The notes under the pieces: model-generated
The model's database searches: none
Told to the model about the DNA's origin: nothing
Seen by the model: the letters and a program-made list of their open reading frames with translations, nothing else
Made by a program: the position numbers and the translations under genes
Shown here: positions 32,981-64,000 of the stretch, piece after piece
Layout: every line of letters begins with the position of its first letter
Numbering within the stretch: position 1 is the stretch's first letter
Source: Arcuatula senhousia
Lineage: Eukaryota > Mollusca > Bivalvia > Mytilida > Mytilidae
Assembly (NCBI GenBank): GCA_963971305.1
Contig: OZ020304.1
Location: 79,670,355-79,734,354 of the forward strand
DNA: 64,000 nt
Direction of reading: 5' to 3'

Positions 32981-34226
32981 CAATAAGAATTATGCAGCTT
33001 ACATGCGTCGTTTAATGTACAGGAAGTTATTCGTCACTATCAAGAACGACACAGTGATATTCTAATTGTACTTTTAGACAGTGTAAAGGCCTTCGACACC
33101 GTTTGGCATGATGGTCTTCTGCTCAAACTGTTCCAGAAGGGAGTGACGGGTAACTTATGGCTACTTCTAGATGAAATGTACAGTGATATGCAAAGTTGTG
33201 TATTATTCAATCTTCTTGGTTCAACCTTCAACGTGGCGTTCGACAAGGTGGAGTGTTATCGGCTGTCCTATATTTGGTGTACATCAATGACCTACTTCTG
33301 GAATTAGCAGAAAACAGGTTCGGATGTATGATGATAGACATTGACATAAGTTCGTCCGTTCAAGCAGACGACATAGCGTTAGCGGCTACAACTGAGTATG
33401 GAATGCAGCGCCTGATTAACTGTTGTGAATCATATAGTTTGAAATGGGCCTTCAAATTTTCACCACCCAAGAGTCACGTGTTAGTATACTCAAAACGGAG
33501 GGATAAGACACTGCCTTATTTAACACTATATTCTAACCGTATCCCAGTCGTTAAGTCTGCAAGACATGTTGGTGTTTTACTGAATAGTGATTTTAACTCT
33601 TTTGACCTTATATCAAATGCCTGTCGATTATTACGGACATCAACTCTTTCCGTTTTGAACTCTGGTATTCACCCATGTTTCTTGAATCCACTTACCTGCT
33701 TGAAAGTAATCAAATCTGTGTGTTATAGAAAAGCCTTATATGGATGCGAACTTTGGAATAATTTAAACAAGACAGAGTTATTGCTGCTAGAACGCTCACA
33801 TCGTTTTATATGTAAAACCCTCCAAGGACTTCCTAAAAGGACAAGATCTGATAAATGCTGTAGCTTATTAGGAATGTATTCCATTGAAACGGAAATTAAC
33901 ATTTGCAAACTTCTATTCTTTGGAAGACTATGCAGACTTAATTCTAATGCCTTGCCTAAAAGAATTCTGGTAACAAGACTTCTGGAAAATAAATATAGTT
34001 GTGTATTTGAACAGTTCGGTTTTGTTCCTGACATTTTGGAATTAATGAAAAAATACAACTTGATTAACTTTTTGAGTGACTTTTTGGAGACCAGTATATT
34101 TCCATCCAAACTAATATGGTCAAGAACTGTAAAGCAGCACGTTTATGAAATAGAAGAAGAGTTGTGGCAAACCAGAATGGAAAGTGACAGTGACTTTGAC
34201 TTGTTTAAATTGATACATCCTAAGAT
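32981..34226 (+). repeat. 1246-bp tandem duplication of the LINE RT region, copy 2
   Basis: As far as I can compare by eye it is identical to copy 1, including the same frameshift and the same codons over more than 300 residues. It is followed directly by the native continuation (attgttcctcatagagcatg) at 34227. Confidence 0.85.
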
Positions 34227-34614
34227 TGTTCCTCATAGAGCATGGACTATAGCAAAACTTTATCCTGAACTTAGAGACAAAGCCAAATTTCTGATAGATG
34301 TTTGCTGCTTAATACGTGAAGAAAATGACCTTCTACTTTGCGATAAATGTGGTCAGTTTTATAACAACATTTTCAAACATTTATTGTTATCCTGCGATCA
34401 AACAAGAAACAGTCGAGATGAGTTTTGGCGTGATATAATAGCAATCAATCCAATAACATTTAGTGTTCACCTAGACAACATGCCTCCTACTGAGTTTTTA
34501 TGCACAATACTGTCTTGCAATACCGAATACGAACTAGACTCAGATGAACTAATCCAGTTTTCAAAAACTTGTGTTTTCCATGTGGCTTCAATTTGCAAAC
34601 TCTTCTATCCTTAA
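33196..34614 (+). pseudogene. LINE ORF2, reverse transcriptase core to C-terminus
   Basis: The frame runs from before RT motif B through the catalytic ADD, the thumb, and a C-terminal CCHC-like knuckle (CDKCGQFYNNIFKHLLLSC, i.e. C-x2-C-x9-H-x4-C), ending at a TAA after LFYP. This is the intact end of ORF2. The ATG at 33196 is only the first in a frame that is entered by a frameshift, so it is not a genuine start. Confidence 0.8.
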
Positions 34615-35428: not shown

Positions 35429-35555
35429 ATGGAAAGAAAACAACAATATTGCTGCATTTGGATTTTAGAATTATTTTTTCTATTCATTAATCTGACGCCA
35501 TGCATTTGCTCCAAAATATCTGATTTGCGGCTTTGTGCAGACAATAATTGTAAAA
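35429..35555 (+). CDS. MIA3: TANGO1 coding exon 1 (signal peptide and CADxxC)
   Basis: The first ATG in frame is at 35429. MERKQQYCCIWILELFFLFI then NLTPCICS forms a signal peptide, followed by KISDLRLCADNNCK. The LCADxxC motif is the start of MIA-family SH3 domains. Donor GTAATA, phase 1. Codon 43 (A + CT from exon 2) gives the same spacing between CADxxC and the next conserved block as in vertebrate MIA. Confidence 0.85.
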
Positions 35556-44500: not shown

Positions 44501-47500
44501 AGGGTTACAAGTATTGGAGGATGAACCAGCAGATACAAACAAGCCTGACACTGATGCAGAGGAAGGGGGACAGCAGATGGACAAACAACCAGTGGAAACA
44601 AACAAACCTGACACTGTGACAGAGGAAGGGGGACAGCAGATGGACAAACAACCAGTGGAAACAAACAAGCCTGACACTGGGGCAGAGGAAGGGGGACAGC
44701 AGATGGACAATCAACCAGTGGAAACAAACAAGCCTGAAGTTGGGACAGAAGAGGGAGGAAACAAACAACCAGCAGAAGATGGAGACAAGAGTCAGATAAA
44801 AAGTGATGACAAACAACTGTTGGAGGGAGAGACAGAAATTGTACAAGACCTGAGTCAACCAGAGGAAGATGGAACAAAAATTCAACAGGACTTTGATAAA
44901 CAAGAAGAAAAAGTACAGGAGCAAGACATGAACAAAGAAGAGGAAAAAGAGACTCAGCAGGATCAGCACAGGGATAAACAGGAGGATGAACACACACAGA
45001 TGGACAACCAACAAGAAAAGGAGGAAGTCAAACAACAGGTGCTAGATGCAGAAACACAGAAAGAGGAAACAGGAACAGAAATTCATCAGAACTTAGAAAA
45101 GACAAATACAGAACAGAAACTTGCAAAGACTAACACAGAACAGAAACTTGCAGAGACAAACTCAGGTGTGGAACAGAAAGTTGAAGAGACAGGCTCAAAT
45201 ATAGAACAGACGGTTGAAGGAAAGCTGGTAGAGGAACAACAAGGAGAACCACCCAAAACAGACTCTAGTAAACCTAGTGGATTAGAAGGAGTTATACAGG
45301 CACAGCATGATAATACTGATAGTCAAGGAGAACCACCCAAAACAGACTCCAGTAAAGCTGGTGGATCAGAAGGAGTTATACAGACACAGCCTGATAATAC
45401 TGATAGGCAAGAGGATGGTACACAAAACACAGAGACTACCATAGAATCAAACACTGAGGTGAAAGAGGAGATAAGGAAAGAAACAAAGGAGGAGGAAACT
45501 GATAAAGCAGGAGATGGTACATTGGTTAGACAAACAGAATCTACAGGAGATGGTACAATGGTTAGACAAACAGGATCTACAGGAGATGGTACCAAAGAAT
45601 TTACAGAAGCAGAGATAAAACCTACACCTGTACTATCCTCAGGGACCTTAGACAATCAAGTTACCTCACAGTTACAATCCAGTACACAGCCTCCTGTCCA
45701 GCCCAGTGAATTAGAAGGCTTTACAATCATTGATGGGACTCCATTTCCTATTGATATGTTTGATGAACCACCCACATCAGTGGAAGGTATACAAGCCACA
45801 GCTTCTCAGGAGACCCACCAACCACCCACGTCAGTGGAAGGTATACAAGCCACAGCTGCCCAGGAGATCCATCAAAGTCACATCTCTCACACTCAAATAG
45901 AACAACAGGACAGTTCTAAACTTAGTGAAACAGTTCATTCAAATCAGGAAGGGAGAATTGCTCATCAAGGCCAAGATAGTAGTACAGTCAAACCCTCACA
46001 AGAAGGCGAAAAAGCCCAACAAAATCAAGAAAGTGGTACAGTCCAACTTACACAAGAAAGTGGTACAGTCCTAGAAACTCAGGAAAGTGGTACAGTCCAA
46101 CAAACTCAGAAAACTGGTACAGACCAACAAAATAAAGAAAGTGGTACAATCAAAGAAACTCAGGAAAGTGGGATACTCCAACAAACTCAAGAAAGTGGTA
46201 CAGTCAAAGAAACTCAGGAAAGTGGTACACTCCAACCAACTCAAGAAAGTGGTACAATCCAACAAACTCAAGAAAGTGGTACAGTCCAACAAACTCAAGA
46301 AAGTGGTACAGTGCAAGAAACTCGAGAAAGTGATACAGTCCAACAAATTCAAGAAAGTGGTACAGTGCAAGAAAATGTAGAAAATGGAATGCTACAACAA
46401 AATCAAGAAAGTGAAACAATCCAACAGATTCAGGAAAAGGAATCAAATCAGATAAATCATGAAGTCCAACAAACTATAGAAAGTGGATCAGCTCAACTTA
46501 ATGATAAAAGAGAAATAAACAAAGTATCCCAAGATGACAAGCTAGACAGTCTACAACGTGACGTTGTTAACAAGAGGGAAGAACCAGAACAACTATTGTC
46601 CAATCAAAAGCCAAGAAAGACGACAGGTCATCCTGATGTTCTAGATGTTACTGAAGAGTACTTGGAAAGTCTCAAACAACAGGAAATGCAGCAGATGAAC
46701 CAGCAAAGCAATGAGGTTAACAAAGACCAAGAGCCACAGACTGGACAAATTACTGACAAGAAACCTGATGACAATGTACAGCCTACAATGCATACTGATA
46801 ATCTACACAAACCTTCAACAGAAGACATCATTGACAGGACAGATGGTGGAATAGTTCAGCCTGTATCTACTACCGGTATTGATAATCAGCAAAAACCACT
46901 AACAGAAAATGTAATTGATAAAAAAGTCAGTGACATCTTACATCCTGTGTCAAATCATGATCATCAGCTGAAACCACTAACAGAGGAAGCCATTGACAGA
47001 AAAGTTGATGATATCTTACAAGCCGTGTCCTCAATGGATCCCCAGCAGAGACCTATAACAGAAGATGCCATTGACAGACGAGATATCCTACACTCTGTGT
47101 CACATGCTGAACAGCTGATGTCATCTATGGAAGTCCCTGTACAACCAGATGTTAATCAAGCTACCATGGAACTCAATAATGATATAAAGGTTGACCAAGC
47201 TACAATGAAACTGAATTCTGACTTTAAGTTTGGTATTGCCAACGAGACAGTGCTGCCACAACAGGACATAGAACCCAGATTACAGGACATCTACAGGACT
47301 GCTGACTTTGTCTCTAGGAAGCCATTATCTCATGAGACAGAAGTCAGTGTTCACCAGGAACCAGTCCAGCCAGAATCTCCTACCAGTCAGACTCCTACCC
47401 AGGACAAAACAGAGGCTCCCCCTAGTCAGACTACTACCCAGGACAAAACAGAGGCTCCCCCTAGCCAGACTACTGCCCAGGACATAACAGAAGCCCCTCC

Positions 47501-48675
47501 TAGCCAGACTCCAGCCTCAATCCAGGAAGAGATACCCCCTCCACCATCAGGAGAGTTTGTCACACCTGATCCTTTGTTACGTAGAATTAATGATGAAAAT
47601 CTAGAGGAAAAGGAAGATAAAGAATACAGGGATCAGCAGACATGGAGAACTGGTTTCCTGACGTTGGATTCCAACTTGAAGGTCATTGTAGAAAAAGTAA
47701 GATTCAGTTCTTTGCTGTTCAATCTACATTTTAATTATAATAAGATAATGCTTGAAAAAAAATATCAATGCATTCTAAACATTCATAAGGAAAATTATAA
47801 AAAAGAGTAAAGAGTTTGAGCAGCATCTTATTTGCTGTTATAGAATAGTGTTCATTTGTTCTGGATTTGACTTTTGCATATTTTGGCAAACACTATTTTT
47901 CTACCACTACTTTGATTAAATAAAGCTTGTTATTTTTCAATCCAATTGTTTTACTAATAACTAATTCTATTTTCTAGGCATGTTATTTTTCAATCCATAT
48001 TGTTTTACTAATAACTAATTCTATTTTCCAGTTACCCCCATCCATCCAGTCTTTATTGGAACAGGAACCTCTTGGTTTATCACCACAGATGACAGTTCTT
48101 GTTGCTATGACAACTGTAGCCATGACAATACTGATAACCAGTCTCTCTTGTTTGTTAGGAGTAAGTTCATTATGTTATAAATCTGAGTTTGTTTGTACAG
48201 TTTTATTTTCTAGAACTATTGTATCTATCGGAGCAAACTTGTTTGTGTGTTTTATATGGGAATCATCTTGTCATAGGTTAAGATTCTAAACTTGGGAGTA
48301 TGCTTATAGTACTAGTTGTTCCTGGTTTTTGGTCAGATTTCATGGAGTGAAAAATATGGGTTATAAAATGGTGAATGTCAGGCGGGCGGGGAAGAAATTT
48401 TCATAACAGTTTTCTCAGCAACTACTAATCACAGCCACTTGATAATTGGTATTCAGCATTAGGGTGGGGTCCCATAATGTGGGATTCGATTTCAGGTCTG
48501 TCACTCACCTACTTCCTGTTTAACGAAATCCAACCATTTTTAACTTTGACAGATTTGTCTCTTAACAACAATTATCTAGTATAATATTTTATGTATAAAT
48601 CAATGTTTCATTAACACCAAATTTTTATATTATTTTTTAAGGGAAAGAAAGCCCCAACCAAGTCAGACCCTATAG
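35429..48675 (+). CDS. MIA3: TANGO1 / MIA3 homologue (ER export receptor), 8 coding exons, C-terminal half off the right edge
   Basis: TANGO1 sits at ER exit sites. Its luminal SH3-like domain engages bulky cargo (collagen, via HSP47 in vertebrates), and its cytosolic coiled coils and proline-rich tail recruit cTAGE5, Sec12 and Sec23. Exons 1-3 give a signal peptide and a MIA-type SH3 fold: LRLCADNNC, LSFSRGEIVQVLSK, DLWAGQ, KGYFPRSFVREY. Exons 4-6 are the acidic, Gln/Glu/Thr-rich luminal region, mostly one 3332-nt exon. Exon 7 carries the membrane segment; exon 8 starts the cytosolic side. All splice phases fit (1361 codons + 1 nt). The next exon must lie beyond 64000, leaving an intron of more than 15 kb filled with the 54-bp array. 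MIA3 rather than MIA2 is preferred because of the long luminal region. Confidence 0.88.
35687..36145. repeat. 459-bp direct repeat, copy 1 (TANGO1 intron 1)
   Basis: It starts tagggaacatgatggtaatt and ends cctgttatgttacct. Copy 2 at 37027-37485 appears identical. The ends are weakly inverted (AGGGAACATGAT against AGGTAACATAAC). It could be a MITE present twice, LTR-like ends of a small element, or a recent duplication. Confidence 0.85.
36146..37026. other. 881-bp segment between the 459-bp direct repeats
   Basis: AT-rich, no coding sequence of note. Together with the flanking repeats it forms a 1.8-kb LTR-like structure, but it lacks TG..CA ends, a recognisable primer-binding site or gag/pol. 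Confidence 0.5.
37027..37485. repeat. 459-bp direct repeat, copy 2 (TANGO1 intron 1)
   Basis: Apparent perfect copy of 35687-36145, displaced by 1340 bp. The flanking sequences differ immediately outside both ends. Confidence 0.85.
37491..38200. mobile_element. Inverted-repeat element (~115-bp arms) in TANGO1 intron 1
   Basis: The left arm 37491-37615 (atacgctcccgaagggagcg, ttagttgtactatgagatga, cttgttttcccgaactttcg) is inverted at 38086-38200 with about 85% identity. The left arm has an extra gaagggagcg hairpin. A diverged relative lies at 17640-19420. Confidence 0.65.
38201..39227. other. TANGO1 intron 1, distal part
   Basis: 38270-38440 is related to 17640-17770 in reverse. A tacatgtacttgtacatgta palindrome lies at about 38583-38602. 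The rest shows nothing recognisable up to the exon 2 acceptor. Confidence 0.4.
39228..39361 (+). CDS. MIA3: TANGO1 coding exon 2 (SH3 domain, residues 43-87)
   Basis: A 134-nt exon coding VLSLAKTLARHQNNDPVFLS then FSRGEIVQVLSKSAGNRPDL WAGQ. Acceptor TTTCTTTCAG, donor GTAAAA. The Cys that usually follows 'PD' in MIA-type domains is absent (NDPV). Confidence 0.9.
39762..39851 (+). CDS. MIA3: TANGO1 coding exon 3 (SH3 domain end, residues 88-117)
   Basis: A 90-nt phase 0-0 exon coding IGDRKGYFPRSFVREYKVEI PNPGNIVPTE. GYFPxSxVRE is the most conserved MIA/TANGO1 motif. Acceptor GCTATAG, donor GTAAAT. Confidence 0.92.
39905..40184 (-). mobile_element. tRNA-derived SINE in TANGO1 intron 3
   Basis: On the minus strand from 40184: gggggcctgggtggtcgagt then ggtctaaggcactgg holds an A-box (TGGTCGAGTGG). 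GGTGTTCGAGTCC (40103-40091) is a B-box. A body follows with ctggtttcctccaccatcaa and ends in an (AC)n tail (39923-39905). The Pol III promoter spacing suits a Leu/Ser-type tRNA head. The central part resembles the conserved domain shared by many invertebrate SINEs (MetaSINE-type); that assignment is tentative. Confidence 0.65.
40185..40658. other. TANGO1 intron 3, distal part, with a fragment of the aggaagtaga family
   Basis: 40500-40650 (agggattttcataaaagctt, aacaaaatccagccattttg) matches the reversed family also seen at 48310-48560. Nothing else is recognised. Confidence 0.4.
40659..40758 (+). CDS. MIA3: TANGO1 coding exon 4 (acidic linker, residues 118-150)
   Basis: A 100-nt exon coding GNEPKPILSGSQSTDDTELG DETEISEDEGYQS plus one base. 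Acceptor TTTTTGTAG, donor GTAAAT. Strongly acidic. Confidence 0.85.
40913..41085. repeat. 54-bp tandem repeat, three copies, TANGO1 intron 4
   Basis: gagatattttatgttctatt then ccacataagggtcaggcagg recurs three times with a 54-bp period (aagggtcagg at 40941, 40995 and 41049). The sequence is unrelated to the large 54-bp array downstream. Confidence 0.85.
41110..42160 (-). mobile_element. Second copy of the atacgaccgca / GACGACGAC element, reversed
   Basis: It starts atacggccgcaaaaaatttg then cggacgtataatggtatgat, and ends ttgcggtcgtatcatactgt then gctcggcgaagcttttt. It is the reverse of 8096-9507, with the same subrepeats (ttaggggcc, aaaggggcc) and the same cccatgggctgcatatgtcc block. Non-coding. 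Confidence 0.65.
42641..42778 (+). CDS. MIA3: TANGO1 coding exon 5 (acidic linker, residues 151-196)
   Basis: A 138-nt exon coding DEDDKRSQGEKNVEETEAPK EVNQGDLIEDETDLTEKPTE SKADSN plus one base. Acceptor TTAATTTAG, donor GTAAGT, phase 1. The composition continues that of exons 4 and 6. Confidence 0.82.
42779..44364. other. TANGO1 intron 5, nothing recognised
   Basis: AT-rich 1.6-kb intron. There is an internal plus-strand ORF at 43654-43854 with no recognisable domain. The phase between exons 5 and 6 is continuous, so no exon needs to lie here. Confidence 0.4.
44365..47696 (+). CDS. MIA3: TANGO1 coding exon 6 (3332-nt luminal exon, residues 197-1307)
   Basis: The exon begins after GCTTTCAG; TG plus the A of exon 5 gives Met, then QEDDTRDETELDDDTDIEVD. 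It ends ...LDSNLKVIVEK with donor GTAAGA, phase 0. The region is acidic and very rich in Q, E and T, and is built from internal repeats: four ~21-residue KPDTxxEEGGQQMDKQPVETN units, fifteen 9-residue ESGTVQQTQ units, pairs of QGEPPKTDSSK and PPTSVEGIQATA, several PLTEEAIDRKVDDIL units, and three TEAPPSQTTxQDK units. A long disordered luminal region is typical of TANGO1; this exact sequence is not conserved. Confidence 0.88.
44541..44760 (+). repeat. 63-bp coding repeat in TANGO1 exon 6, about 3.5 copies
   Basis: Units of 21 codons (NKPDTxxEEGGQQMDKQPVET) are nearly identical at DNA level. The last copy is degenerate (NKPEVGTEEGGNKQP). Confidence 0.85.
46029..46433 (+). repeat. 27-bp coding repeat in TANGO1 exon 6, 15 copies
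   Basis: Fifteen consecutive 9-residue units of the form ESGTVQQTQ (variants ESGTVKETQ, ESGTLQPTQ, KTGTDQQNK). The period is exactly 27 bp and all are in frame. Confidence 0.9.
47697..47927. other. TANGO1 intron 6, 5' part, nothing recognised
   Basis: Short AT-rich intron segment between the exon 6 donor and the duplicated acceptor region. Confidence 0.4.
47928..48032 (+). repeat. Tandem duplication of the TANGO1 exon 7 acceptor
   Basis: tgttatttttcaatccaatt then gttttactaataactaattc and tattttctag is followed directly by a second, nearly identical copy ending tattttccag. Both contain the branch-like ttactaataac, the pyrimidine tract and the AG, at 47976-47977 and 48030-48031, 54 nt apart. 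Confidence 0.92.
48032..48160 (+). CDS. MIA3: TANGO1 coding exon 7 (transmembrane exon, residues 1308-1350)
   Basis: A 129-nt phase 0-0 exon coding LPPSIQSLLEQEPLGLSPQ followed by MTVLVAMTTVAMTILITSLS CLLG, a clear membrane segment. Acceptor TATTTTCCAG, donor GTAAGT. A second acceptor copy lies exactly 54 nt upstream (AG at 47976-47977) in a local tandem duplication. Confidence 0.88.
48161..48641. other. TANGO1 intron 7, with a reversed aggaagtaga-family fragment
   Basis: About 48310-48560 (tttcataacagttttctcag, ctacttcctgtttaacgaaa) is the interspersed family of 2090-2745 and 12480-12925 in the other orientation. Confidence 0.5.
48642..48675 (+). CDS. MIA3: TANGO1 coding exon 8 (34 nt), founder of the 54-bp array
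   Basis: The exon codes GKKAPTKSDPI plus one base (phase 1), with acceptor TTTTTTAAG and donor GTAAGC. The basic KKAPTK fits the cytosolic side of the membrane segment. Its last 16 bases (AAGTCAGACCCTATAG) and the donor are the constant part of every unit of the array that follows. The call rests on phase, position and the origin of the array; no conserved motif marks it. Confidence 0.7.
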
Positions 48676-51600
48676 GTAAGCCTGGTTGTTTGTCAGTAGT
48701 ATTATCTAACATTAAGTCAGACCCTATAGGTAAGCCTGGTTGTTTGTCAGTAGTATTATCTAACATCAGACCCTATAGGTAAGCCTGGTTGTTTGTCAGT
48801 AGTATTATCTAACATTAAGTCAGACCCTATAGGTAAGCCTGGTTGTTTGTCAGTAGTATTATCTAACATTAAGTCAGACCCTATAGGTAAGTCTTGTTGT
48901 TTGTCAGTAGTATTATCTAACATTAAGTCAGACCCTATAGGTAAGCCTGGTTGTTTGTCAGTAGTATTATCTAACATTAAGTCAGACCCTATAGGTAAGC
49001 CTGGTTGTTTGTCAGTAGTATTATCTAACATTAAGTCAGACCCTATAGGTAAGTCTTGTTGTTTGTCAGTAGTATTATCTAACATTAAGTCAGACCCTAT
49101 AGGTAAGCCTGGTTGTTTGTCAGTAGTATTATCTAACATTAAGTCAGACCCTATAGGTAAGCCTGGTTGTTTGTCAGTAGTATTATCTAACATTAAGTCA
49201 GACCCTATAGGTAAGTCTTGTTGTTTGTCAGTAGTATTATCTAACATTAAGTCAGACCCTATAGGTAAGCCTGGTTGTTTGTCAGTAGTATTATCTAACA
49301 TTAAGTCAGACCCTATAGGTAAGCCTTGTTGTTTGTCAGTAGTATTATCTAACATTAAGTCAGACCCTATAGGTAAGTCTGGTTGTTTGTCAGTAGTATT
49401 ATCTAACATTAAGTCAGACCCTATAGGTAAGCCTGGTTGTTTGTCAGTAGTATTATCTAACATTAAGTCAGACCCTATAGGTAAGTCTTGTTGTTTGTCA
49501 GTAGTATTATCTAACATTAAGTCAGACCCTATAGGTAAGCCTGGTTGTTTGTCAGTAGTATTATCTAACATTAAGTCAGACCCTATAGGTAAGCCTGGTT
49601 GTTTGTCAGTAGTATTATCTAACATTAAGTCAGACCCTATAGGTAAGTCTTGTTGTTTGTCAGTAGTATTATCTAACATCAGACCCTATAGGTAAGCCTG
49701 GTTGTTTGTCAGTAGTATTATCTAACATTAAGTCAGACCCTATAGGTAAGCCTGGTTGTTTGTCAGTAGTATTATCTAACATTAAGTCAGACCCTATAGG
49801 TAAGCCTGGTTGTTTGTCAGTAGTATTATCTAACATTAAGTCAGACCCTATAGGTAAGCCTGGTTGTTTGTCAGTAGTATTATCTTACATTAAGTCAGAC
49901 CCTATAGGTAAGCCTGGTTGTTTGTCAGTAGTATTATCTAACATTAAGTCAGACCCTATAGGTAAGTCTGGTTGTTTGTCAGTAGTATTATCTAACATTA
50001 AGTCAGACCCTATAGGTAAGCCTGGTTGTTTGTCAGTAGTATTATCTAACATTAAGTCAGACCCTATAGGTAAGCCTGGTTGTCTGTCAGTAGTATTATC
50101 TAACATTAAGTCAGACCCTATAGGTAAGCCTGGTTGTTTGTCAGTAGTATTATCTAACATTAAGTCAGACCCTATAGGTAAGTCTTGTTGTTTGTCAGTA
50201 GTATTATCTAACATTAAGTCAGACCCTATAGGTAAGCCTTGTTGTTTGTCAGTAGTATTATCTAACATTAAGTCAGACCCTATAGGTAAGCCTGGTTGTT
50301 TGTCAGTAGTATTATCTAACATTAAGTCAGACCCTATAGGTAAGTCTGGTTGTTTGTCAGTAGTATTATCTAACATTAAGTCAGACCCTATAGGTAAGCC
50401 TGGTTGTTTGTCAGTAGTATTATCTAACATTAAGCCAGACCCTATAGGTAAGTCTGGTTGTTTGTCAGTAGTATTATCTAACATTAAGTCAGACCCTATA
50501 GGTAAGTCTGGTTGTTTGTCAGTAGTATTATCTAACATTAAGTCAGACCCTATAGGTAAGTCTTGTTGTTTGTCAGTAGTATTATCTAACATTAAGTCAG
50601 ACCCTATAGGTAAGCCTGGTTGTTTGTCAGTAGTATTATCTAACATTAAGTCAGACCCTATAGGTAAGCCTGGTTGTCTGTCAGTAGTATTATCTAACAT
50701 TAAGTCAGACCCTATAGGTAAGCCTGGTTGTTTGTCAGTAGTATTATCTTACATTAAGTCAGACCCTATAGGTAAGTCTGGTTGTTTGTCAGTAGTATTA
50801 TCTAACATTAAGTCAGACCCTATAGGTAAGCCTGGTTGTTTGTCAGTAGTATTATCTAACATTAAGTCAGACCCTATAGGTAAGCCTGGTTGTTTGTCAG
50901 TAGTATTATCTAACATTAAGTCAGACCCTATAGGTAAGTCTGGTTGTTTGTCAGTAGTATTATCTAACATTAAGCCAGACCCTATAGGTAAGTCTGGTTG
51001 TTTGTCAGTAGTATTATCTAACATTAAGTCAGACCCTATAGGTAAGCCTGGTTGTTTGTCAGTAGTATTATCTTACATTAAGTCAGACCCTATAGGTAAG
51101 TCTGGTTGTTTGTCAGTAGTATTATCTAACATTAAGTCAGACCCTATAGGTAAGTCTGGTTGTTTGTCAGTAGTATTATCTAACATTAAGTCAGACCCTA
51201 TAGGTAAGCCTTGTTGTTTGTCAGTAGTATTATATAACATTAAGTCAGACCCTATAGGTAAGCCTGGTTGTTTGTCAGTAGTATTATCTTACATTAAGTC
51301 AGACCCTATAGGTAAGCCTGGTTGTTTGTCAGTAGTATTATCTAACATTAAGTCAGACCCTATAGGTAAGCCTGGTTGTTTGTCAGTAGTATTATCTAAC
51401 ATTAAGTCAGACCCTATAGGTAAGTCTGGTTGTTTGTCAGTAGTATTATCTAACATTAAGTCAGACCCTATAGGTAAGCCTGGTTGTTTGTCAGTAGTAT
51501 TATCTTACATTAAGTCAGACCCTATAGGTAAGCCTGGGTGTTTGTCAGTAGTATTATCTAACATTAAGTCAGACCCTATAGGTAAGCCTGGTTGTTTATC

Positions 51601-54600
51601 AGTAGTATTATCTAACATTAAGTCAGACCCCATAGGTAAGCCTGGTTGTTTGTCAGTAGTATTATCTAACATTAAGTCAGACCCTATAGGTAAGCCTGGT
51701 TGTTTGTCAGTAGTATTATCTAACATTAAGTCAGACCCTATAGGTAAGTCTGGTTGTTTATCAGTAGTATTATCTAACATTAAGTCAGACCCTATAGGTA
51801 AGCCTGGTTGTTTGTCAGTAGTATTATCTTACATTAAGTCAGACCCTATAGGTAAGCCTGGTTGTTTGTCAGTAGTATTATCTAACATTAAGTCAGACCC
51901 TATAGGTAAGCCTGGTTGTCTGTCAGTAGTATTATCTAACATTAAGTCAGACCCTATAGGTAAGTCTGGTTGTTTGTCAGTAGTATTATCTAACATTAAG
52001 TCAGACCCTATAGGTAAGCCTGGTTGTCTGTCAGTAGTATTATCTAACATTAAGTCAGACCCTATAGGTAAGCCTTGTTGTTTGTCAGTAGTATTATCTA
52101 ACATTAAGTCAGACCCTATAGGTAAGCCTGGTTGTTTGTCAGTAGTATTATCTTACATTAAGTCAGACCCTATAGGTAAGCCTGGTTGTTTGTCAGTAGT
52201 ATTATCTAACATTAAGTCAGACCCTATAGGTAAGCCTGGTTGTTTGTCAGTAGTATTATCTAACATTAAGTCAGACCCTATAGGTAAGCCTGGTTGTTTG
52301 TCAGTAGTATTATCTAACATTAAGTCAGACCCTATAGGTAAGCCTGGTTGTTTGTCAGTAGTATTATCTAACATTAAGTCAGACCCTATAGGTAAGTCTG
52401 GTTGTTTGTCAGTAGTATTATCTAACATTAAGTCAGACCCTATAGGTAAGTCTTGTTGTTTGTCAGTAGTATTATCTAACATTAAGTCAGACCCTATAGG
52501 TAAGCCTGGTTGTTTGTCAGTAGTATTATCTAACATTAAGTCAGACCCTATAGGTAAGTCTGGTTGTTTGTCAGTAGTATTATCTAACATTAAGTCAGAC
52601 CCTATAGGTAAGCCTGGTTGTTTGTCAGTAGTATTATCTAACATTAAGTCAGACCCTATAGGTAAGCCTGGTTGTTTGTCAGTAGTATTATCTAACATTA
52701 AGTCAGACCCTATAGGTAAGCCTGGTTGTTTGTCAGTAGTATTATCTAACATTAAGTCAGACCCTATAGGTAAGTCTGGTTGTTTGTCAGTAGTATTATC
52801 TAACATTAAGTCAGACCCTATAGGTAAGTCTTGTTGTTTGTCAGTAGTATTATCTTACATTAAGTCAGACCCTATAGGTAAGTCTTGTTGTTTGTCAGTA
52901 GTATTATCTAACATTAAGTCAGACCCTATAGGTAAGCCTGGTTGTTTGTCAGTAGTATTATCTAACATTAAGTCAGACCCTATAGGTAAGCCTGGTTGTT
53001 TGTCAGTAGTATTATCTAACATTAAGTCAGACCCTATAGGTAAGCCTGGTTGTTTGTCAGTAGTATTATCTAACATTAAGTCAGACCCTATAGGTAAGCC
53101 TGGTTGTTTGTCAGTAGTATTATCTAACATCAGACCCTATAGGTAAGCCTGGTTGTTTGTCAGTAGTATTATCTAACATTAAGTCAGACCCTATAGGTAA
53201 GCCTGGTTGTTTGTCAGTAGTATTATCTAACATTAAGTCAGACCCTATAGGTAAGCCTGGTTGTTTGTCAGTAGTATTATCTAACATCAGACCCTATAGG
53301 TAAGCCTGGTTGTTTGTCGGTAGTATTATCTAACATTAAGTCAGACCCTATAGGTAAGCCTTGTTGTTTGTCAGTAGTATTATCTAACATCAGACCCTAT
53401 AGGTAAGTCTGGTTGTTTGTCAGTAGTATTATCTAACATTAAGTCAGACCCTATAGGTAAGCCTGGTTGTTTGTCAGTAGTATTATCTAACATCAGACCC
53501 TATAGGTAAGTCTGGTTGTTTGTCAGTAGTATTATCTAACATTAAGTCAGACCCTATAGGTAAGCCTGGTTGTTTGTCAGTAGTATTATCTAACATTAAG
53601 TCAGACCCTATAGGTAAGCCTGGTTGTTTGTCAGTAGTATTATCTAACATTAAGTCAGACCCTATAGGTAAGCCTGGTTGTTTGTCAGTAGTATTATCTA
53701 ACATTAAGTCAGACCCTATAGGTAAGCCTGGTTGTTTGTCAGTAGTATTATCTAACATTAAGTCAGACCCTATAGGTAAGCCTGGTTGTTTGTCAGTAGT
53801 ATTATCTAACATTAAGTCAGACCCTATAGGTAAGCCTGGTTGTTTGTCAGTAGTATTATCTTACATTAAGTCAGACCCTATAGGTAAGCCTGGTTGTTTG
53901 TCAGTAGTATTATCTAACATTAAGTCAGACCCTATAGGTAAGTCTTGTTGTTTGTCAGTAGTATTATCTAACATTAAGTCAGACCCTATAGGTAAGCCTG
54001 GTTGTTTGTCAGTAGTATTATCTAACATTAAGTCAGACCCTATAGGTAAGTCTTGTTGTTTGTCAGTAGTATTATCTAACATTAAGTCAGACCCTATAGG
54101 TAAGCCTGGTTGTTTGTCAGTAGTATTATCTAACATTAAGTCAGACCCTATAGGTAAGTCTTGTTGTTTGTCAGTAGTATTATCTAACATCAGACCCTAT
54201 AGGTAAGTCTTGTTGTTTGTCAGTAGTATTATCTTACATTAAGTCAGACCCTATAGGTAAGCCTTGTTGTTTGTCAGTAGTATTATCTAACATTAAGTCA
54301 GACCCTATAGGTAAGTCTTGTTGTTTGTCAGTAGTATTATCTAACATTAAGTCAGACCCTATAGGTAAGCCTGGTTGTTTGTCAGTAGTATTATCTAACA
54401 TTAAGTCAGACCCTATAGGTAAGCCTGGTTGTTTGTCAGTAGTATTATCTAACATTAAGTCAGACCCTATAGGTAAGTCTGGTTGTTTGTCAGTAGTATT
54501 ATCTAACATTAAGTCAGACCCTATAGGTAAGCCTGGTTGTTTGTCAGTAGTATTATCTAACATTAAGTCAGACCCTATAGGTAAGCCTGGTTGTTTGTCA

Positions 54601-57600
54601 GTAGTATTATCTAACATTAAGTCAGACCCTATAGGTAAGCCTGGTTGTTTGTCAGTAGTATTATCTAACATTAAGTCAGACCCTATAGGTAAGTCTTGTT
54701 GTTTGTCAGTAGTATTATCTAACATTAAGTCAGACCCTATAGGTAAGTCTTGTTGTTTGTCAGTAGTATTATCTAACATTAAGTCAGACCCTATAGGTAA
54801 GCCTGGTTGTTTGTCAGTAGTATTATCTAACATTAAGTCAGACCCTATAGGTAAGCTTGGTTGTTTGTCAGTAGTATTATCTAACATTAAGTCAGACCCT
54901 ATAGGTAAGCCTGGTTGTTTGTCAGTAGTATTATCTAACATTAAGTCAGACCCTATAGGTAAGCCTGGTTGTTTGTCAGTAGTATTATCTAACATTAAGT
55001 CAGACCCTATAGGTAAGCCTGGTTGTTTGTCAGTAGTATTATCTAACATTAAGTCAGACCCTATAGGTAAGCCTGGTTGTCTGTCAGTAGTATTATCTAA
55101 CATTAAGTCAGACCCTATAGGTAAGCCTGGTTGTCTGTCAGTAGTATTATCTAACATTAAGTCAGACCCTATAGGTAAGCCTGGTTGTCTGTCAGTAGTA
55201 TTATCTAACATTAAGTCAGACCCTATAGGTAAGCCTGGTTGTTTGTCAGTAGTATTATCTAACATTAAGTCAGACCCTATAGGTAAGTCTTGTTGTTTGT
55301 CAGTAGTATTATCTAACATTAAGTCAGACCCTATAGGTAAGCCTGGTTGTTTGTCAGTAGTATTATCTAACATTAAGTCAGACCCTATAGGTAAGCCTGG
55401 TTGTTTGTCAGTAGTATTATCTAACATTAAGTCAGACCCTATAGGTAAGTCTTGTTGTTTGTCAGTAGTATTATCTAACATTAAGTCAGACCCTATAGGT
55501 AAGTCTTGTTGTTTGTCAGTAGTATTATCTAACATTAAGTCAGACCCTATAGGTAAGCCTGGTTGTTTGTCAGTAGTATTATCTAACATTAAGTCAGACC
55601 CTATAGGTAAGCCTGGTTGTTTGTCAGTAGTATTATCTAACATTAAGTCAGACCCTATAGGTAAGCCTTGTTGTTTGTCAGTAGTATTATCTAACATTAA
55701 GTCAGACCCTATAGGTAAGTCTGGTTGTTTGTCAGTAGTATTATCTAACATTAAGTCAGACCCTATAGGTAAGTCTTGTTGTTTGTCAGTAGTATTATCT
55801 AACATTAAGTCAGACCCTATAGGTAAGTCTTGTTGTTTGTCAGTAGTATTATCTAACATTAAGTCAGACCCTATAGGTAAGCCTTGTTGTTTGTCAGTAG
55901 TATTATCTAACATTAAGTCAGACCCTATAGGTAAGCCTGGTTGTTTGTCAGTAGTATTATCTAACATTAAGTCAGACCCTATAGGTAAGCCTGGTTGTTT
56001 GTCAGTAGTATTATCTAACATTAAGTCAGACCCTATAGGTAAGCCTGGTTGTTTGTCAGTAGTATTATCTAACATTAAGTCAGACCCTATAGGTAAGCCT
56101 GGTTGTTTGTCAGTAGTATTATCTAACATTAAGTCAGACCCTATAGGTAAGTCTTGTTGTTTGTCAGTAGTATTATCTAACATTAAGTCAGACCCTATAG
56201 GTAAGCCTGGTTGTTTATCAGTAGTATTATCTAACATTAAGTCAGACCCTATAGGTAAGTCTGGTTGTTTGTCAGTAGTATTATCTTACATTAAGTCAGA
56301 CCCTATAGGTAAGCCTGGTTGTTTGTCAGTAGTATTATCTAACATTAAGTCAGACCCTATAGGTAAGCCTGGTTGTTTGTCAGTAGTATTATCTAACATT
56401 AAGTCAGACCCTATAGGTAAGCCTGGTTGTTTGTCAGTAGTATTATCTAACATTAAGTCAGACCCTATAGGTAAGCCTGGTTGTTTGTCAGTAGTATTAT
56501 CTAACATTAAGTCAGACCCTATAGGTAAGCCTGGTTGTTTGTCAGTAGTATTATCTAACATTAAGTCAGACCCTATAGGTAAGCCTGGTTGTTTGTCAGT
56601 AGTATTATCTTACATTAAGTCAGACCCTATAGGTAAGCCTGGTTGTTTGTCAGTAGTATTATCTAACATTAAGTCAGACCCTATAGGTAAGCCTGGTTGT
56701 TTGTCAGTAGTATTATCTAACATTAAGTCAGACCCTATAGGTAAGTCTTGTTGTTTGTCAGTAGTATTATCTTACATTAAGTCAGACCCTATAGGTAAGC
56801 CTTGTTGTTTGTCAGTAGTATTATCTAACATTAAGTCAGACCCTATAGGTAAGCCTGGTTGTTTGTCAGTAGTATTATCTAACATTAAGTCAGACCCTAT
56901 AGGTAAGCCTGGTTGTTTGTCAGTAGTATCATCTAACATTAAGTCAGACCCTATAGGTAAGCCTGGTTGTTTGTCAGTAGTATTATCTAACATCAGACCC
57001 TATAGGTAAGCCTGGTTGTTTGTCAGTAGTATTATCTAACATTAAGTCAGACCCTATAGGTAAGCCTGGTTGTTTGTCAGTAGTATTATCTAACATTAAG
57101 TCAGACCCTATAGGTAAGTCTGGTTGTTTGTCAGTAGTATTATCTAACATTAAGTCAGACCCTATAGGTAAGCCTGGTTGTTTGTCAGTAGTATTATCTT
57201 ACATTAAGTCAGACCCTATAGGTAAGCCTGGTTGTTTGTCAGTAGTATTATCTAACATTAAGTCAGACCCTATAGGTAAGCCTGGTTGTTTGTCAGTAGT
57301 ATTATCTAACATTAAGTCAGACCCTATAGGTAAGCCTGGTTGTTTGTCAGTAGTATTATCTAACATTAAGTCAGACCCTATAGGTAAGTCTTGTTGTTTG
57401 TCAGTAGTATTATCTAACATTAAGTCAGACCCTATAGGTAAGTCTTGTTGTTTGTCAGTAGTATTATCTAACATTAAGTCAGACCCTATAGGTAAGCCTG
57501 GTTGTTTGTCAGTAGTATTATCTAACATTAAGTCAGACCCTATAGGTAAGCCTGGTTGTTTGTCAGTAGTATTATCTAACATTAAGTCAGACCCTATAGG

Positions 57601-59677
57601 TAAGCCTGGTTGTTTGTCAGTAGTATTATCTAACATTAAGTCAGACCCTATAGGTAAGTCTGGTTGTTTGTCAGTAGTATTATCTAACATTAAGTCAGAC
57701 CCTATAGGTAAGCCTGGTTGTTTGTCAGTAGTATTATCTTACATTAAGTCAGACCCTATAGGTAAGCCTGGTTGTTTGTCAGTAGTATTATCTAACATTA
57801 AGTCAGACCCTATAGGTAAGCCTGGTTGTTTGTCAGTAGTATTATCTAACATTAAGTCAGACCCTATAGGTAAGCCTGGTTGTTTGTCAGTAGTATTATC
57901 TAACATTAAGTCAGACCCTATAGGTAAGTCTTGTTGTTTGTCAGTAGTATTATCTAACATTAAGTCAGACCCTATAGGTAAGTCTTGTTGTTTGTCAGTA
58001 GTATTATCTAACATTAAGTCAGACCCTATAGGTAAGCCTGGTTGTTTGTCAGTAGTATTATCTAACATTAAGTCAGACCCTATAGGTAAGCCTGGTTGTT
58101 TGTCAGTAGTATTATCTAACATTAAGTCAGACCCTATAGGTAAGCCTGGTTGTTTGTCAGTAGTATTATCTAACATTAAGTCAGACCCTATAGGTAAGCC
58201 TTGTTGTTTGTCAGTAGTATTATCTAACATCAGACCCTATAGGTAAGTCTGGTTGTTTGTCAGTAGTATTATCTTACATTAAGTCAGACCCTATAGGTAA
58301 GTCTTGTTGTTTGTCAGTAGTATTATCTAACATTAAGTCAGACCCTATAGGTAAGCCTGGTTGTTTGTCAGTAGTATTATCTAACATTAAGTCAGACCCT
58401 ATAGGTAAGCTTGGTTGTTTGTCAGTAGTATTATCTAACATTAAGTCAGACCCTATAGGTAAGCCTGGTTGTTTGTCAGTAGTATTATCTAACATTAAGT
58501 CAGACCCTATAGGTAAGCCTGGTTGTTTGTCAGTAGTATTATCTAACATTAAGTCAGACCCTATAGGTAAGCCTGGTTGTTTGTCAGTAGTATTATCTAA
58601 CATTAAGTCAGACCCTATAGGTAAGTCTTGTTGTTTGTCAGTAGTATTATCTAACATTAAGTCAGACCCTATAGGTAAGCCTGGTTGTCTGTCAGTAGTA
58701 TTATCTAACATTAAGTCAGACCCTATAGGTAAGTCTGGTTGTTTGTCAGTAGTATTATCTAACGTTTAAGTCAGACCCTATAGGTAAGTCTTGTTGTTTG
58801 TCAGTAGTATTATCTAACATTAAGTCAGACCCTATAGGTAAGCCTGGTTGTTTGTCAGTAGTATTATCTAACATTAAGTCAGACCCTATAGGTAAGCCTT
58901 GTTGTTTGTCAGTAGTATTATCTAACATTAAGTCAGACCCTATAGGTAAGCCTTGTTGTTTGTCAGTAGTATTATCTAACATTAAGTCAGACCCTATAGG
59001 TAAGCCTGGTTGTTTGTCAGTAGTATTATCTAACATTAAGTCAGACCCTATAGGTAAGTTTGGTTGTTTGTCAGTAGTATTATCTAACATTAAGTCAGAC
59101 CCTATAGGTAAGTCTTGTTGTTTGTCAGTAGTATTATCTAACATTAAGTCAGACCCTATAGGTAAGTCTTGTTGTTTGTCAGTAGTATTATCTTACATTA
59201 AGTCAGACCCTATAGGTAAGTCTGGTTGTTTGTCAGTAGTATTATCTTACATTAAGTCAGACCCTATAGGTAAGCCTGGTTGTTTGTCAGTAGTATTATC
59301 TAACATTAAGTCAGACCCTATAGGTAAGTTTGGTTGTTTGTCAGTAGTATTATCTAACATTAAGTCAGACCCTATAGGTAAGTCTTGTTGTTTGTCAGTA
59401 GTATTATCTAACATTAAGTCAGACCCTATAGGTAAGTCTTGTTGTTTGTCAGTAGTATTATCTTACATTAAGTCAGACCCTATAGGTAAGTCTTGTTGTT
59501 TGTCAGTAGTATTATCTTACATTAAGTCAGACCCTATAGGTAAGCCTGGTTGTTTGTCAGTAGTATTATCTTACATTAAGTCAGACCCTATAGGTAAGCC
59601 TGGGTGTTTGTCAGTAGTATTATCTAACATTAAGTCAGACCCTATAGGTAAGCCTGGGTGTTTGTCAGTAGTATTAT
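48660..59677 (+). repeat. 54-bp tandem array (minisatellite/satellite), block 1, about 204 units
   Basis: The unit is AAGTCAGACCCTATAG (copy of the TANGO1 exon 8 end), GTAAG, then cctggttgtttgtcagtagt and attatctaacatt. Variation is confined to a few positions: cctggttg / tcttgttg / tctggttg / ccttgttg, and taacatt / ttacatt. About ten 49-bp units lack five bases (aacatcagaccc) in the two blocks together. Local higher-order blocks are visible. The long ORFs on both strands are a by-product of a stop-free unit of 18 codons and are not annotated as genes. Confidence 0.97.
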
Positions 59678-61313
59678 TATGTCTCCCCTTCCCAGAAGGG
59701 GGAGACATATTGTTTTTGTGTCAGTTCTTCTTCTTCTTCTTCTTCTTCTTCTCATACAAAGCGTGTCCGGGCCATAACTTTTTTATCCTTTGAGATAGGG
59801 CTTTGATATTTGGCATGTGGATGTATCACCATGAGACGATGTGTCGCGTACCAGAATGACCTTCATATGACCTTGACCTTTGACCTCAAGGTCAAATTAA
59901 GGCTAATTTTACATCCAAAGTGTTCCGGGCCATAACTTTTTTGTTCTTTGACATAAGGTTTTGATATTTGGCATGTGGATGTATCACCATGAGACGATGT
60001 GTCACATACCAGAATGACCTTCATATGACCTTGTCCTTTGACCTCAAGGTTAGATTAATGCTTATTTTACATGGAAAGTGTGTCTGTGCCATAACTGTTT
60101 TTGTTCTTTGGCATAGGGCTTTTATATTTAATATGATGATGTATTACCATGATATTATGTGTGGCGTACCAGAATGACCTTCATATGACCTTGACCTTTG
60201 ACATCAAGGTCAAATTAAAGTTAATTTTACATGCAAAGCGTGTCAGGGCCATAACTTTTTTATCCTTTGAGATAGGGCTTTGATATTTGGCATGTGGATG
60301 TATCACCATGAGACGATTTGTCGCGTGCCAGAATGACCTTCATATTACCTTGACCTTTGACCTCAAGGTCAAATTTATGCTAATTTTACATCAGAAGTGT
60401 TCCGGGCCATAACTTTTTTGTTCTTTGACATAAGGCTTTGATATTTGGCATGTGGATGTATCACCATGAGACGATGTGTCACGTAGCAGAATGACCTTCA
60501 TATGACCTTGTCCTTTGACCTCAAGGTTAAATTAATGCTTATTTTACATGGAAAGTGTGTCTGTGCCATAACTGTTTTTGTTCTTTTGCATAGGGCTTTA
60601 ATATTTAACATGTTGATGTATTACCATGAGATTATGTGTGGCGTACCAGAATGACCTTCATATGACCTTGACCTTTGACATCAAGGTCAAATTAAAGCTA
60701 ATTTTACATGCAAAGTGTGTCCTGGTCATAACTTTTTATCCTTTGATATTTGGCATGTGGATGTTTCGCCATGAGACGATGTGTCACGTACCAGAATGAC
60801 CTTCACATGACCTTGACCTTTGACCTCAAATAAGGCCATTACTTTTTTGTTCTTTGACATAGGGCTTTGATATTTCGCATGTGGATATTTCGCCATGAGC
60901 CATGTGGCGTACCAGAATGACCTTCATATGACCTTGACCTTTGACCTCAAGGTCAAATTAATGCTATTTTTACACATAAAACATGTCTGGGTCATACATA
61001 TTTTAATCCTATTCAAAAGGCTTTGAATTTTTACATTTCAATTTGTCATCATGGAAACAATGTGTCACCAACCTTAATGACTTTGACCTGTGACTTCAAT
61101 GTCAAATAAATGCTAATTTGACATGCAAAGCCTTCCAGGCCATAACTTTTTTATCCTTTGACATAGGGCTGTAGAATGTAGATGTATCATTATTAAAAAA
61201 ATTGTTGTACAATGTATGTCATTGTGACTTTGACCTTTTGACCTCAAGATTGAACTTGATATTCAAGGAAGGGGAGACATCAGTTTTAGTGTGCTAAAAC
61301 AGTTTTTCCTAGT
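59678..61313. mobile_element. 1.6-kb element inserted in the 54-bp array, with ATGTCTCCCCTTC ends and ~158-bp subrepeats
   Basis: The array breaks within a unit at gtattat and resumes with cttacattaag, losing almost nothing. The element starts tatgtctccccttcccagaa and has gaaggggagacat near its right end (61268-61280), giving a 13-bp inverted match; about 33 bp more precede the array. The interior holds about nine ~158-bp subrepeats (ccataacttttt..., ttgatatttggcatgtggat, catatgaccttgacctttga). A (CTT)n tract lies at 59727-59752. No protein is encoded. Confidence 0.8.
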
Positions 61314-63420
61314 CTTACATTAAGTCAGACCCTATAGGTAAGCCTGGTTGTTTGTCAGTAGTATTATCTAACATTAAGTCAGACCCTATAGGTAAGCCTT
61401 GTTGTTTGTCAGTAGTATTATCTAACATTAAGTCAGACCCTATAGGTAAGTCTGGTTGTTTGTCAGTAGTATTATCTTACATTAAGTCAGACCCTATAGG
61501 TAAGCCTGGTTGTTTGTCAGTAGTATTATCTAACATTAAGTCAGACCCTATAGGTAAGCCTGGTTGTTTGTCAGTAGTATTATCTAACATTAAGTCAGAC
61601 CCTATAGGTAAGCCTGGTTGTTTGTCAGTAGTATTATCTAACATTAAGTCAGACCCTATAGGTAAGCCTGGTTGTTTGTCAGTAGTATTATCTTACATTA
61701 AGTCATACCCTATAGGTAAGCCTGGTTGTTTGTCAGTAGTATTATCTAACATTAAGTCAGACCCTATAGGTAAGCCTGGTTGTTTGTCAGTAGTATTATC
61801 TAACATTAAGTCAGACCCTATAGGTAAGTCTGGTTGTTTGTCAGTAGTATTATCTAACATTAAGTCAGACCCTATAGGTAAGCCTGGTTGTTTGTCAGTA
61901 GTATTATCTTACATAGAGTCAGACCCTATAGGTAAGCCTGGTTGTTTGTCAGTAGTATTATCTAACATTAAGTCAGACCCTATAGGTAAGCCTGGTTGTT
62001 TGTCAGTAGTATTATCTAACATTAAGTCAGACCCTATAGGTAAGCCTGGTTGTTTGTCAGTAGTATTATCTAACATTAAGTCAGACCCTATAGGTAAGTC
62101 TGGTTGTTTGTCAGTAGTATTATCTAACACTAAGTCAGACCCTATAGGTAAGTCTTGTTGTTTGTCAGTAGTATTATCTAACATTAAGTCAGACCCTATA
62201 GGTAAGCCTGGTTGTTTGTCAGTAGTATTATCTAACATTAAGTCAGACCCTATAGGTAAGCCTGGTTGTTTGTCAGTAGTATTATCTAACATTAAGTCAG
62301 ACCCTATAGGTAAGCCTGGTTGTTTGTCAGTAGTATTATCTAACATTAAGTCAGACCCTATAGGTAAGCCTGGTTGTTTGTCAGTAGTATAATCTAACAT
62401 TAAGTCAGACCCTATAGGTAAGTCTTGTTGTTTGTCAGTAGTATTATCTAACATTAAGTCAGACCCTATAGGTAAGCCTGGTTGTTTGTCAGTAGTATTA
62501 TCTAACATTAAGTCAGACCCTATAGGTAAGCCTGGTTGTTTGTCAGTAGTATTATCTAACATTAAGTCAGACCCTATAGGTAAGTCTGGTTGTTTGTCAG
62601 TAGTATTATCTAACATTAAGTCAGACCCTATAGGTAAGCCTGGTTGTTTGTCAGTAGTATTATCTAACATTAAGTCAGACCCTATAGGTAAGTCTGGTTG
62701 TTTGTCAGTAGTATTATCTAACATTAAGTCAGACCCTATAGGTAAGCCTGGTTGTTTGTCAGTAGTATTATCTAACATTAAGTCAGACCCTATAGGTAAG
62801 CCTGGTTGTTTGTCAGTAGTATTATCTAACATTAAGTCAGACCCTATAGGTAAGCCTGGTTGTTTGTCAGTAGTATTATCTAACATTAAGTCAGACCCTA
62901 TAGGTAAGTCTGGTTGTTTGTCAGTAGTATTATCTAACACTAAGTCAGACCCTATAGGTAAGTCTTGTTGTTTGTCAGTAGTATTATCTAACATTAAGTC
63001 AGACCCTATAGGTAAGCCTGGTTGTTTGTCAGTAGTATTATCTAACATTAAGTCAGACCCTATAGGTAAGCCTGGTTGTTTGTCAGTAGTATTATCTAAC
63101 ATTAAGTCAGACCCTATAGGTAAGCCTGGTTGTTTGTCAGTAGTATTATCTAACATCAGACCCTATAGGTAAGCCTGGTTGTTTGTCAGTAGTATTATCT
63201 AACATTAAGTCAGACCCTATAGGTAAGCCTTGTTGTTTGTCAGTAGTATTATCTTACATTAAGTCAGACCCTATAGGTAAGCCTGGTTGTTTGTCAGTAG
63301 TATTATCTAACATTAAGTCAGACCCTATAGGTAAGTCTTGTTGTTTGTCAGTAGTATTATCTTACATTAAGTCAGACCCTATAGGTAAGCCTGGTTGTTT
63401 GTCAGTAGTATTATCTTACA
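61314..63420 (+). repeat. 54-bp tandem array, block 2, about 39 units
   Basis: It continues the same unit in the same orientation after the insertion. One unit has a taacactaag variant that appears twice, 810 bp apart (15 units), marking a higher-order duplication. The array ends at ttatcttacatt|attaatg near 63420. Confidence 0.97.
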
Positions 63421-63511
63421 TTATTAATGATTTCAAAATATTATGTCAAAGAGAAAAAGATGTTTACATGTAAATGTTTCTAGTAAATACTATTATTTAG
63501 ATTAGAAGAAT

Positions 63512-63950
63512 CAGTTGAAAAAGACTTAAACCTATAGGTTAGACATAAAAACAGTGAAAAAGACTTGAACCTATAGGTTAGACATAAAAACAGTGAAAAA
63601 GACTTAAACCTATAGGTTACACATAAAGACAGTGAAAAAGACTTAAACCTATAGGTTACACATAAAAACAGTGAAAAAGACTTAAACCTATAGGTTACAC
63701 ATAAAAACTGTGAAAAAGACTTAAACCTATAGGTTACACATAAAAACAGTGAAAAAGACTTAAACCTATAGGCTACACATAAAAACAGTGCAAAAGACTT
63801 AAACCTATAGGTTACACATAAAAACAGTGAAAAAGACTTAAACCTATAGGTTACACATAAAAACTGTGAAAAAGACTTAAACCTAAAGTTTACACATTAA
63901 AACAGTGAAAAAGACCTAAACCTATAGATTACACATGAAAACTGTTAAAA
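63512..63950. repeat. 39-bp tandem array, about 11 units
   Basis: The unit is aaaaagacttaaacctatag then gttacacataaaaacagtg, with an exact 39-bp period and low divergence; the last two units are degenerate. It begins about 90 bp after the 54-bp array ends and shares the core CCTATAGGT with it. It still lies within the TANGO1 intron that starts at 48676. Confidence 0.93.
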
Positions 63951-64000
63951 GAAAAGCTGTTTAAGTTAATTAATTTGCAAGTATCTTTCACATTATAAAG

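Follow-up and report, generated by a model that had tools for sequence, protein, structure and literature searches.

A 5' splice site repeated about 240 times in tandem inside a TANGO1 intron of the bivalve Arcuatula senhousia

The human gene IFI6 (6-16, G1P3) contains a minisatellite that supplies multiple splice donors, as stated in the title of a 1995 paper cited in PMC2572611, and the passage of a citing paper that deals with it (PMC4526556) describes the use of two downstream repeat units as donors, giving three mRNAs. In the present study we analyzed a 64,000-nucleotide stretch of the Arcuatula senhousia genome (contig OZ020304.1, positions 79,670,355 to 79,734,354 of the forward strand; this whole stretch is referred to as the window, and all positions below are counted from its first letter), in which a TANGO1 intron begins with a 54-bp repeat carrying the 5' splice site of the preceding exon in each of its units. 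The arrangement has a precedent in IFI6 and belongs to a known but rare kind, of which it is a greatly enlarged example; as in the human gene, in the portrayal of the cited passages, donor sequences are contained in the units of a tandem repeat situated where an exon meets its intron. The IFI6 repeat reportedly comprised 26 copies of a 12-nt unit in the work of Turri, Cuin and Porter (1995), whereas the array described here has 244 units of 54 bp, bears putative alternative donors and follows a 34-nt exon of a mollusc-like TANGO1 gene. Here the authentic donor comes first; judged by sequence, a donor recurs in all units, and one downstream unit, that of donor 2, is in frame. We consider the array to be, most likely, a giant case of the IFI6 kind.

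Two further systems are comparable in part. In the potato RdRp gene, the relevant section of PMC4974935 reports a single tandem duplication that spanned the intron 1-exon 2 border, after which a new intron arose. As far as that section goes, the potato and the bivalve locus have in common a tandem duplication over an exon-intron border that provides extra splice signals, and they differ in that one duplication and a new intron are described for potato, as opposed to a 244-fold multiplication of the donor side, with no demonstrated new intron, in the bivalve. The ratchet points of Drosophila, according to the part of PMC8605326 that describes them, are likewise characterized by juxtaposed AG|GT and a donor about 50 nt downstream, but they are single sites in long introns, whereas the locus considered here is a repeat array with no clear polypyrimidine tract. 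A literature search for comparable arrays returned the potato case, with IFI6 being sought by name, which does not prove rarity in print, and searches on TANGO1 with microexon or with Mytilus retrieved nothing on point.

The array and the exon at which it begins comprise the following elements.

48642-48675, + strand: TANGO1 exon 8, a 34-nt microexon encoding GKKAPTKSDPI plus 1 nt, phase 1
48660-63423, + strand: 54-bp tandem array AAGTCAGACCCTATAG|GTAAGCCTGGTTGTTTGTCAGTAGTATTATCTAACATT with 244 donors, all GTAAG (Tandem Repeats Finder, TRF; anchor and pattern searches)
48730-48778, + strand: first 49-bp unit, with a 5-nt deletion, so that splicing at donor 3 would change the frame
59677-61312, no strand assigned: unrelated sequence of 1636 bp inserted into a single unit at an A|T site
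63424-64000, + strand: non-repeat intron to the right of the array, taken as its ancestral continuation, and then a 39-bp array at 63516-63950

Together with exon 8 the array spans 48642-63423. The exon ends in AAGTCAGACCCTATAG|GTAAG, and this end is itself the first array copy, with 16 exon bases shared with the unit; the array starts at the exon end, with the authentic donor in its first unit, and its left edge falls within exon 8. At the right edge TTATCTTACATT is followed by ATTAATGATTTC, which is non-repeat. A single 54-bp array was reported by TRF at 48660-63423, printed as 274 copies for a span that includes the insertion. An anchor search independent of the donor detected 244 units, each with GTAAG at the donor place (244/244), and a 19-base junction pattern with at most three mismatches produced 244 matches, versus 0.01 expected from shuffles. 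The exact word CTATAGGTAAG occurs 243 times within the array and nowhere else in the window, the remaining unit reading CATAGGTAAG; counting the exon end, TATAG|GTAAG is present in 243 copies and CATAG|GTAAG in one. The 243 donor-to-donor intervals measure 54 bp (231 cases), 49 bp (10), 55 bp (1) and 1690 bp (1), the last of which holds the 1636-bp insertion, and 29 distinct sequences were found among 242 intervals. The ten 49-bp units share the same 5-base deletion and are scattered over 48730-63168, four of them between 53094 and 53505; each changes the frame for any sequence read across it.

The host gene was reconstructed from these further exons.

ATG at 35429, + strand: coding exon 1 (signal-peptide exon), read by eye
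39228-39361 and 39762-39851, + strand: exons 2 and 3, SH3 domain (Pfam)
44365-47696, + strand: exon 6, the long luminal exon
48032-48160, + strand: exon 7, transmembrane region LPPSIQSLLEQEPLGLSPQMTVLVAMTTVAMTILITSLSCLLG

On its plus strand the window contains the first eight coding exons of TANGO1, including exons 4 and 5, with GT and AG borders present at exons 2 to 8; the number 8 counts the signal-peptide exon, placed by eye, as the first coding exon. Exons 2 and 3 match SH3_2 of Pfam (E 4.8e-09). When the final 190 residues of the gene model were used as a protein query, 14 molluscan proteins were retrieved at E <= 1e-3 among 596 candidates; they come from 13 species (nine bivalve and five gastropod proteins, none of them close), ten being annotated as transport and Golgi organization protein 1 or MIA2-like and the other four as hypothetical or uncharacterised. 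In 14 of 14 the alignment reaches DP[ILV], the counterpart of KSDPI at the end of exon 8, and in 14 of 14 this is followed directly, without an insert, by the start of the coiled coil (VVVR, LVVR, VVIR or VVIH, then [LI]EE). Judged by the luminal SH3 domain, the conserved membrane segment and the coiled-coil start of the homologues, the gene is TANGO1/MIA3, its own coiled coil being placed beyond the window. Since all 14 homologues continue into the coiled coil without an insert, the comparison supports the first donor (after 48675) as the probable ancestral exon border. Exon 9 was not found within the 64-kb window and must sit beyond its end, and a search with the membrane segment joined to a scallop tail gave no relatives among 62 candidates of about 360-1145 residues. 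The initial annotation had named TANGO1 as the host and numbered the exon 8, and had described some 240 near-identical copies of the last 16 exon bases with their donor, the exon boundary itself being the first unit. The host is supported by the Pfam SH3 match and by the 14 molluscan proteins matching the membrane segment and exon 8, and the number by counting the signal-peptide exon first; the copies amount to 244 with GTAAG intact in all, and the exon does end in the repeated 16 bases. One correction applies: the unrelated insertion at 59677-61312 interrupts the 54-bp donor array.

The two edges, with a left copy that begins within the exon and a right copy that gives way to unrelated intron, show that the array grew where it now lies, through tandem duplication of the exon-intron junction. 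In the simplest history, a segment made up of the final 16 nt of exon 8 and the adjoining 38 nt of intron would have been duplicated once in tandem, and the copies would then have been multiplied to 244 by unequal exchange or slippage; the site of origin is given by the edges, and this mode of growth is a proposed one. An alternative source, a satellite invading from elsewhere, was rejected on anatomy, as the exon end itself forms the first copy and the array passes on its right into non-repeat intron within the window. No copies of the unit occur elsewhere in the window, and exact-pattern scans of viral_contigs and genome_contigs gave 0 matches, which has little meaning for collections of viruses and prokaryotes.

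Variation among the 231 full-length units affects 16 of the 54 positions, none of them in the 7-base AG|GTAAG block. A hypergeometric test of this invariance gave P 0.07; selection on the donor, which this value makes suggestive at most, was not accepted, as the invariance is indistinguishable from drift. No clear period of higher-order repeats was detected in the array. Adjacent units differ at 1.15 bases on average versus 1.22 for any pair, and 36 lag tests produced weak signals only (position +33 at lag 6, P 0.004, and at lag 4, P 0.016; position +6 at lag 6, P 0.03). One run of 12 units recurs at an offset of 10 units, and all eight combinations of the variants at +6, +9 and +33 are present. 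Such mixing could reflect thorough exchange between units, growth that was not only local, or units shuffled by the assembly.

Tandem repeats are not confined to this intron. TRF lists nine in exon 6, with periods of 27 to 84 bp that are divisible by three in nine cases out of nine, which points to a general tendency to tandem duplication, seemingly only filtered for frame by selection in exons. Because the gene is rich in tandem repeats and the exon 6 periods are all multiples of three, a neutral origin of the donor array is taken as the default. The exon 6 repeats include those of the ESGTVQQTQ type, and intron 4 harbors another 54-bp tandem array of different sequence (40911-41085, 3.2 copies).

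Pairing with the 5' end of U1 small nuclear RNA (snRNA) yielded -9.7 kcal/mol for the exon 8 donor; seven TANGO1 donors were scored, and the remaining six gave weaker values, from -4.5 to -8.8. Within the array the value is -10.8 for 74 of the 244 donors, which have T at +6, and -9.7 for the other 170; in the first 48.6 kb of the window, 9 of 2591 GTs pair as well as -9.7. Every unit carries the sequence of a complete and, by this predicted pairing, strong 5' splice site. The consequences for the reading frame are determined by the first few units.

48676-48729, + strand: first optional extension of exon 8, 54 nt in frame, which would add GKPGCLSVVLSNIKSDPI (18 codons) with donor 2

With donor 2 (after 48729) the exon would measure 88 nt, in frame and without a stop, and with donor 3 (after 48778) 137 nt with the frame shifted; only 2 of the 244 donors, donors 1 and 2, keep the frame without a stop. 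Local folding of 59 array donors (window 80, span 40, the direction being the same at two longer settings) gave accessibilities of 0.0032 for the first, 0.0157 for the second and 0.0116 for the third, the remaining 56 averaging 0.0093; by the same naive folding the six other TANGO1 donors are more accessible (0.02 to 0.25) than those of the array. Self-pairing of the unit RNA is not unusual, 49% of shuffled units pairing at least as well, and one 371-nt stretch folds slightly better than its shuffles (z -2.05), of which 4 in 100 do equally well. No Rfam family reached threshold within the window. These data, with pairing values of -9.7 or -10.8 kcal/mol, agree with the earlier statements that the donors are strong and that donor 2 extends the exon by 54 nt in frame (18 codons), donor 3 breaking the frame through its 49-bp unit; the proposed birth by duplication across the exon-intron junction fits both outer edges of the array. 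The roles suggested earlier for the array, as a U1 sponge, a splicing enhancer or a hotspot of donor choice, are hypothetical, and neither the donor invariance nor the naive folding speaks for them.

The explanation that we favor, with a probability of roughly two in three, is that of an intronic minisatellite born in place, the first donor of which is mainly used, its neighbors leaking and the rest being passive. Exon 8 would most likely be spliced mainly from its own first donor, giving the conserved protein; the next donor or two may leak, by analogy with IFI6, with the addition of 18 codons in frame or a frame shift, and the remaining approximately 240 donors would most likely be passive, except for some binding of the U1 small nuclear ribonucleoprotein. 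No protein with the 18-residue repeat was found when array peptides from both strands were searched (7986 candidates scored, lengths about 79-252 residues). Several considerations weigh against dominance of the first donor. Among equal competing donors the one nearest the 3' splice site is preferred, and the first would not win automatically. Exon definition prefers exons longer than 34 nt and would favor donors 2 and 3. In the folding analysis the first donor (0.0032) is less accessible than the second, the third and the mean of the next 56. The comparison with homologues is one of protein sequences, and exon 9 of the present gene must lie past the window. Finally, SRSF1 and similar proteins can move the choice to an intron-proximal donor, as described in the pertinent part of PMC5585400.

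Some of the same observations would suit a different role, possible though unlikely, in which the array diversifies TANGO1, either because donors 2 and 3 equal or surpass the first in usage, or because units serve as cassette exons. Use of donors 2 and 3 would place an 18-residue insert just past the membrane segment, or yield a frameshifted, unstable mRNA that sets the TANGO1 level. Donor 2 is in frame without a stop, the array donors match or exceed the first in U1 pairing, exon 8 has merely 34 nt, and in IFI6 two downstream units do serve as donors (PMC4526556, in the passage already mentioned), but open donors that keep the frame number just 2 of 244 with the first included, the 14 molluscan proteins have no insert, and no repeat-bearing protein was found in the search limited to about 79-252 residues. 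The cassettes would be 33-nt exons between GTCAG| and |GTAAG, with the frame kept. In a small model built from the gene's own seven acceptors, which themselves score 0.8 to 11.2, GTCAG at unit position 21 falls inside this range with 4.2 (93rd percentile of AGs), and the 33 nt after it are open in frame (frame assigned by eye); however, the nearest CTAAC is 41 nt off, with four other AGs between. The same model bears on a recursive ladder, in which TATAG|GTAAG acts as an acceptor joined to a donor, and the intron would be removed in unit-sized steps, the exon 8 donor being regenerated. Its signals would be the branch-point-like CTAAC 20 nt upstream of TATAG and a further donor 54 nt downstream; GTAAG, CTAAC and the terminal AG occur together in 215 of the 243 intervals, which gives the array the look of consecutive recursive splice sites with zero-length exons. 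Fly ratchet points combine AG|GT with a short recursive-splicing exon (RS-exon, about 50 nt) that has its own donor, according to the same portion of PMC8605326, and here the next unit would provide that donor, at a downstream distance of 54 nt for 231 of the 243 intervals, while an AG acceptor is joined to a GT donor as at the fly sites. Exact CTAAC in a comparable stretch is encountered at about 1.1% of random places in the window, but the looser CTRAY at a suitable distance is found in 8.6% of random stretches, and duplication of any exon that ends in AG creates AG|GT automatically. For the TATAG acceptor the score is -3.3, versus 0.8 to 11.2 for the gene's own acceptors, which places it at the 54th percentile of AGs, and the tract upstream of it, at 47% pyrimidine in this sequence test, is not a clear polypyrimidine tract as at a ratchet point. 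The intron size also counts against the ladder, since 54 nt is close to the minimum in animals. In view of the weakness of the acceptor with which each unit ends, we regard the ladder as very improbable, and give as little credence to a self-regenerating track of about 240 steps, on which splicing to any unit end would restore the identical exon 8 donor. If true, the intron could be shortened by one or many units at once with the message unchanged, and the array would be a natural recursive-splicing track.

Intronic U1 sites are known to guard against premature polyadenylation (telescripting), and we see a slim chance that the 244 hexamer-free U1 sites form a platform that shields a long intron from premature 3'-end formation or titrates U1 locally. 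AATAAA and ATTAAA are absent from the units, compared with 38 in the 15 kb upstream, and from 48642 onward they are restricted to the insertion (60214, 60691, 61105, 61192) and a neighboring 39-bp array (63896); furthermore, 244 high-affinity sites contrast with 9 equally good ones among the 2591 GTs of the first 48.6 kb. The resemblance to telescripting in having many intronic U1 sites and few polyadenylation hexamers is, however, trivial on both counts, as a single hexamer-free 54-bp unit has been repeated; an intron free of the array would have no extra 14 kb needing protection, and U1 is so abundant that titration is implausible. It is hardly likely that the assembly misrepresents a real array, with a wrong number or order of copies or by inflation of a short true array. 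The variants cluster little along the array, which is unusual for local growth and would fit such an error, but there are 29 distinct sequences among 242 intervals, a single-copy insertion lies inside the array, 12 consecutive units are repeated at a 10-unit offset as real local duplication would leave them, and unique flanks are present at both array ends.

Several other elements are located near the donor array or upstream of the gene. The insertion at 59677-61312 ends in CTAG and has a stem-loop near its 3' end (identified by eye), internal 158-bp tandem repeats (TRF) and an inverted repeat ATGTCTCCCCTTCC close to both ends; it looks like a Helitron-like non-autonomous element. A second array begins 92 bases past the end of the 54-bp array.

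63516-63950, + strand: second intronic array, 39-bp unit x 11.2 copies

Its unit contains a 12-bp palindrome, AACCTATAGGTT. The 9-mer CCTATAGGT is common to the 39-bp and the 54-bp unit (shuffle P 0.024), and CCTATAGG is confined to the stretch spanned by both arrays; this sharing is due either to chance or to a common effect of the palindrome on repeat growth. Upstream of TANGO1, at 27751-34614, LINE-like open reading frames with the look of an endonuclease and a reverse transcriptase (by eye) include a segment repeated at a 1246-bp offset, with identical frames at 31741-32061 and 32987-33307.

The locus represents a natural competition experiment, in which a single transcript contains 244 near-identical 5' splice sites, headed by the presumed ancestral site. 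The usage of these donors would test the roles of exon size, transcription order and acceptor distance in the choice among equal donors. The array also shows the extent to which multiplication of a splice junction is tolerated, presumably without destroying an essential gene.

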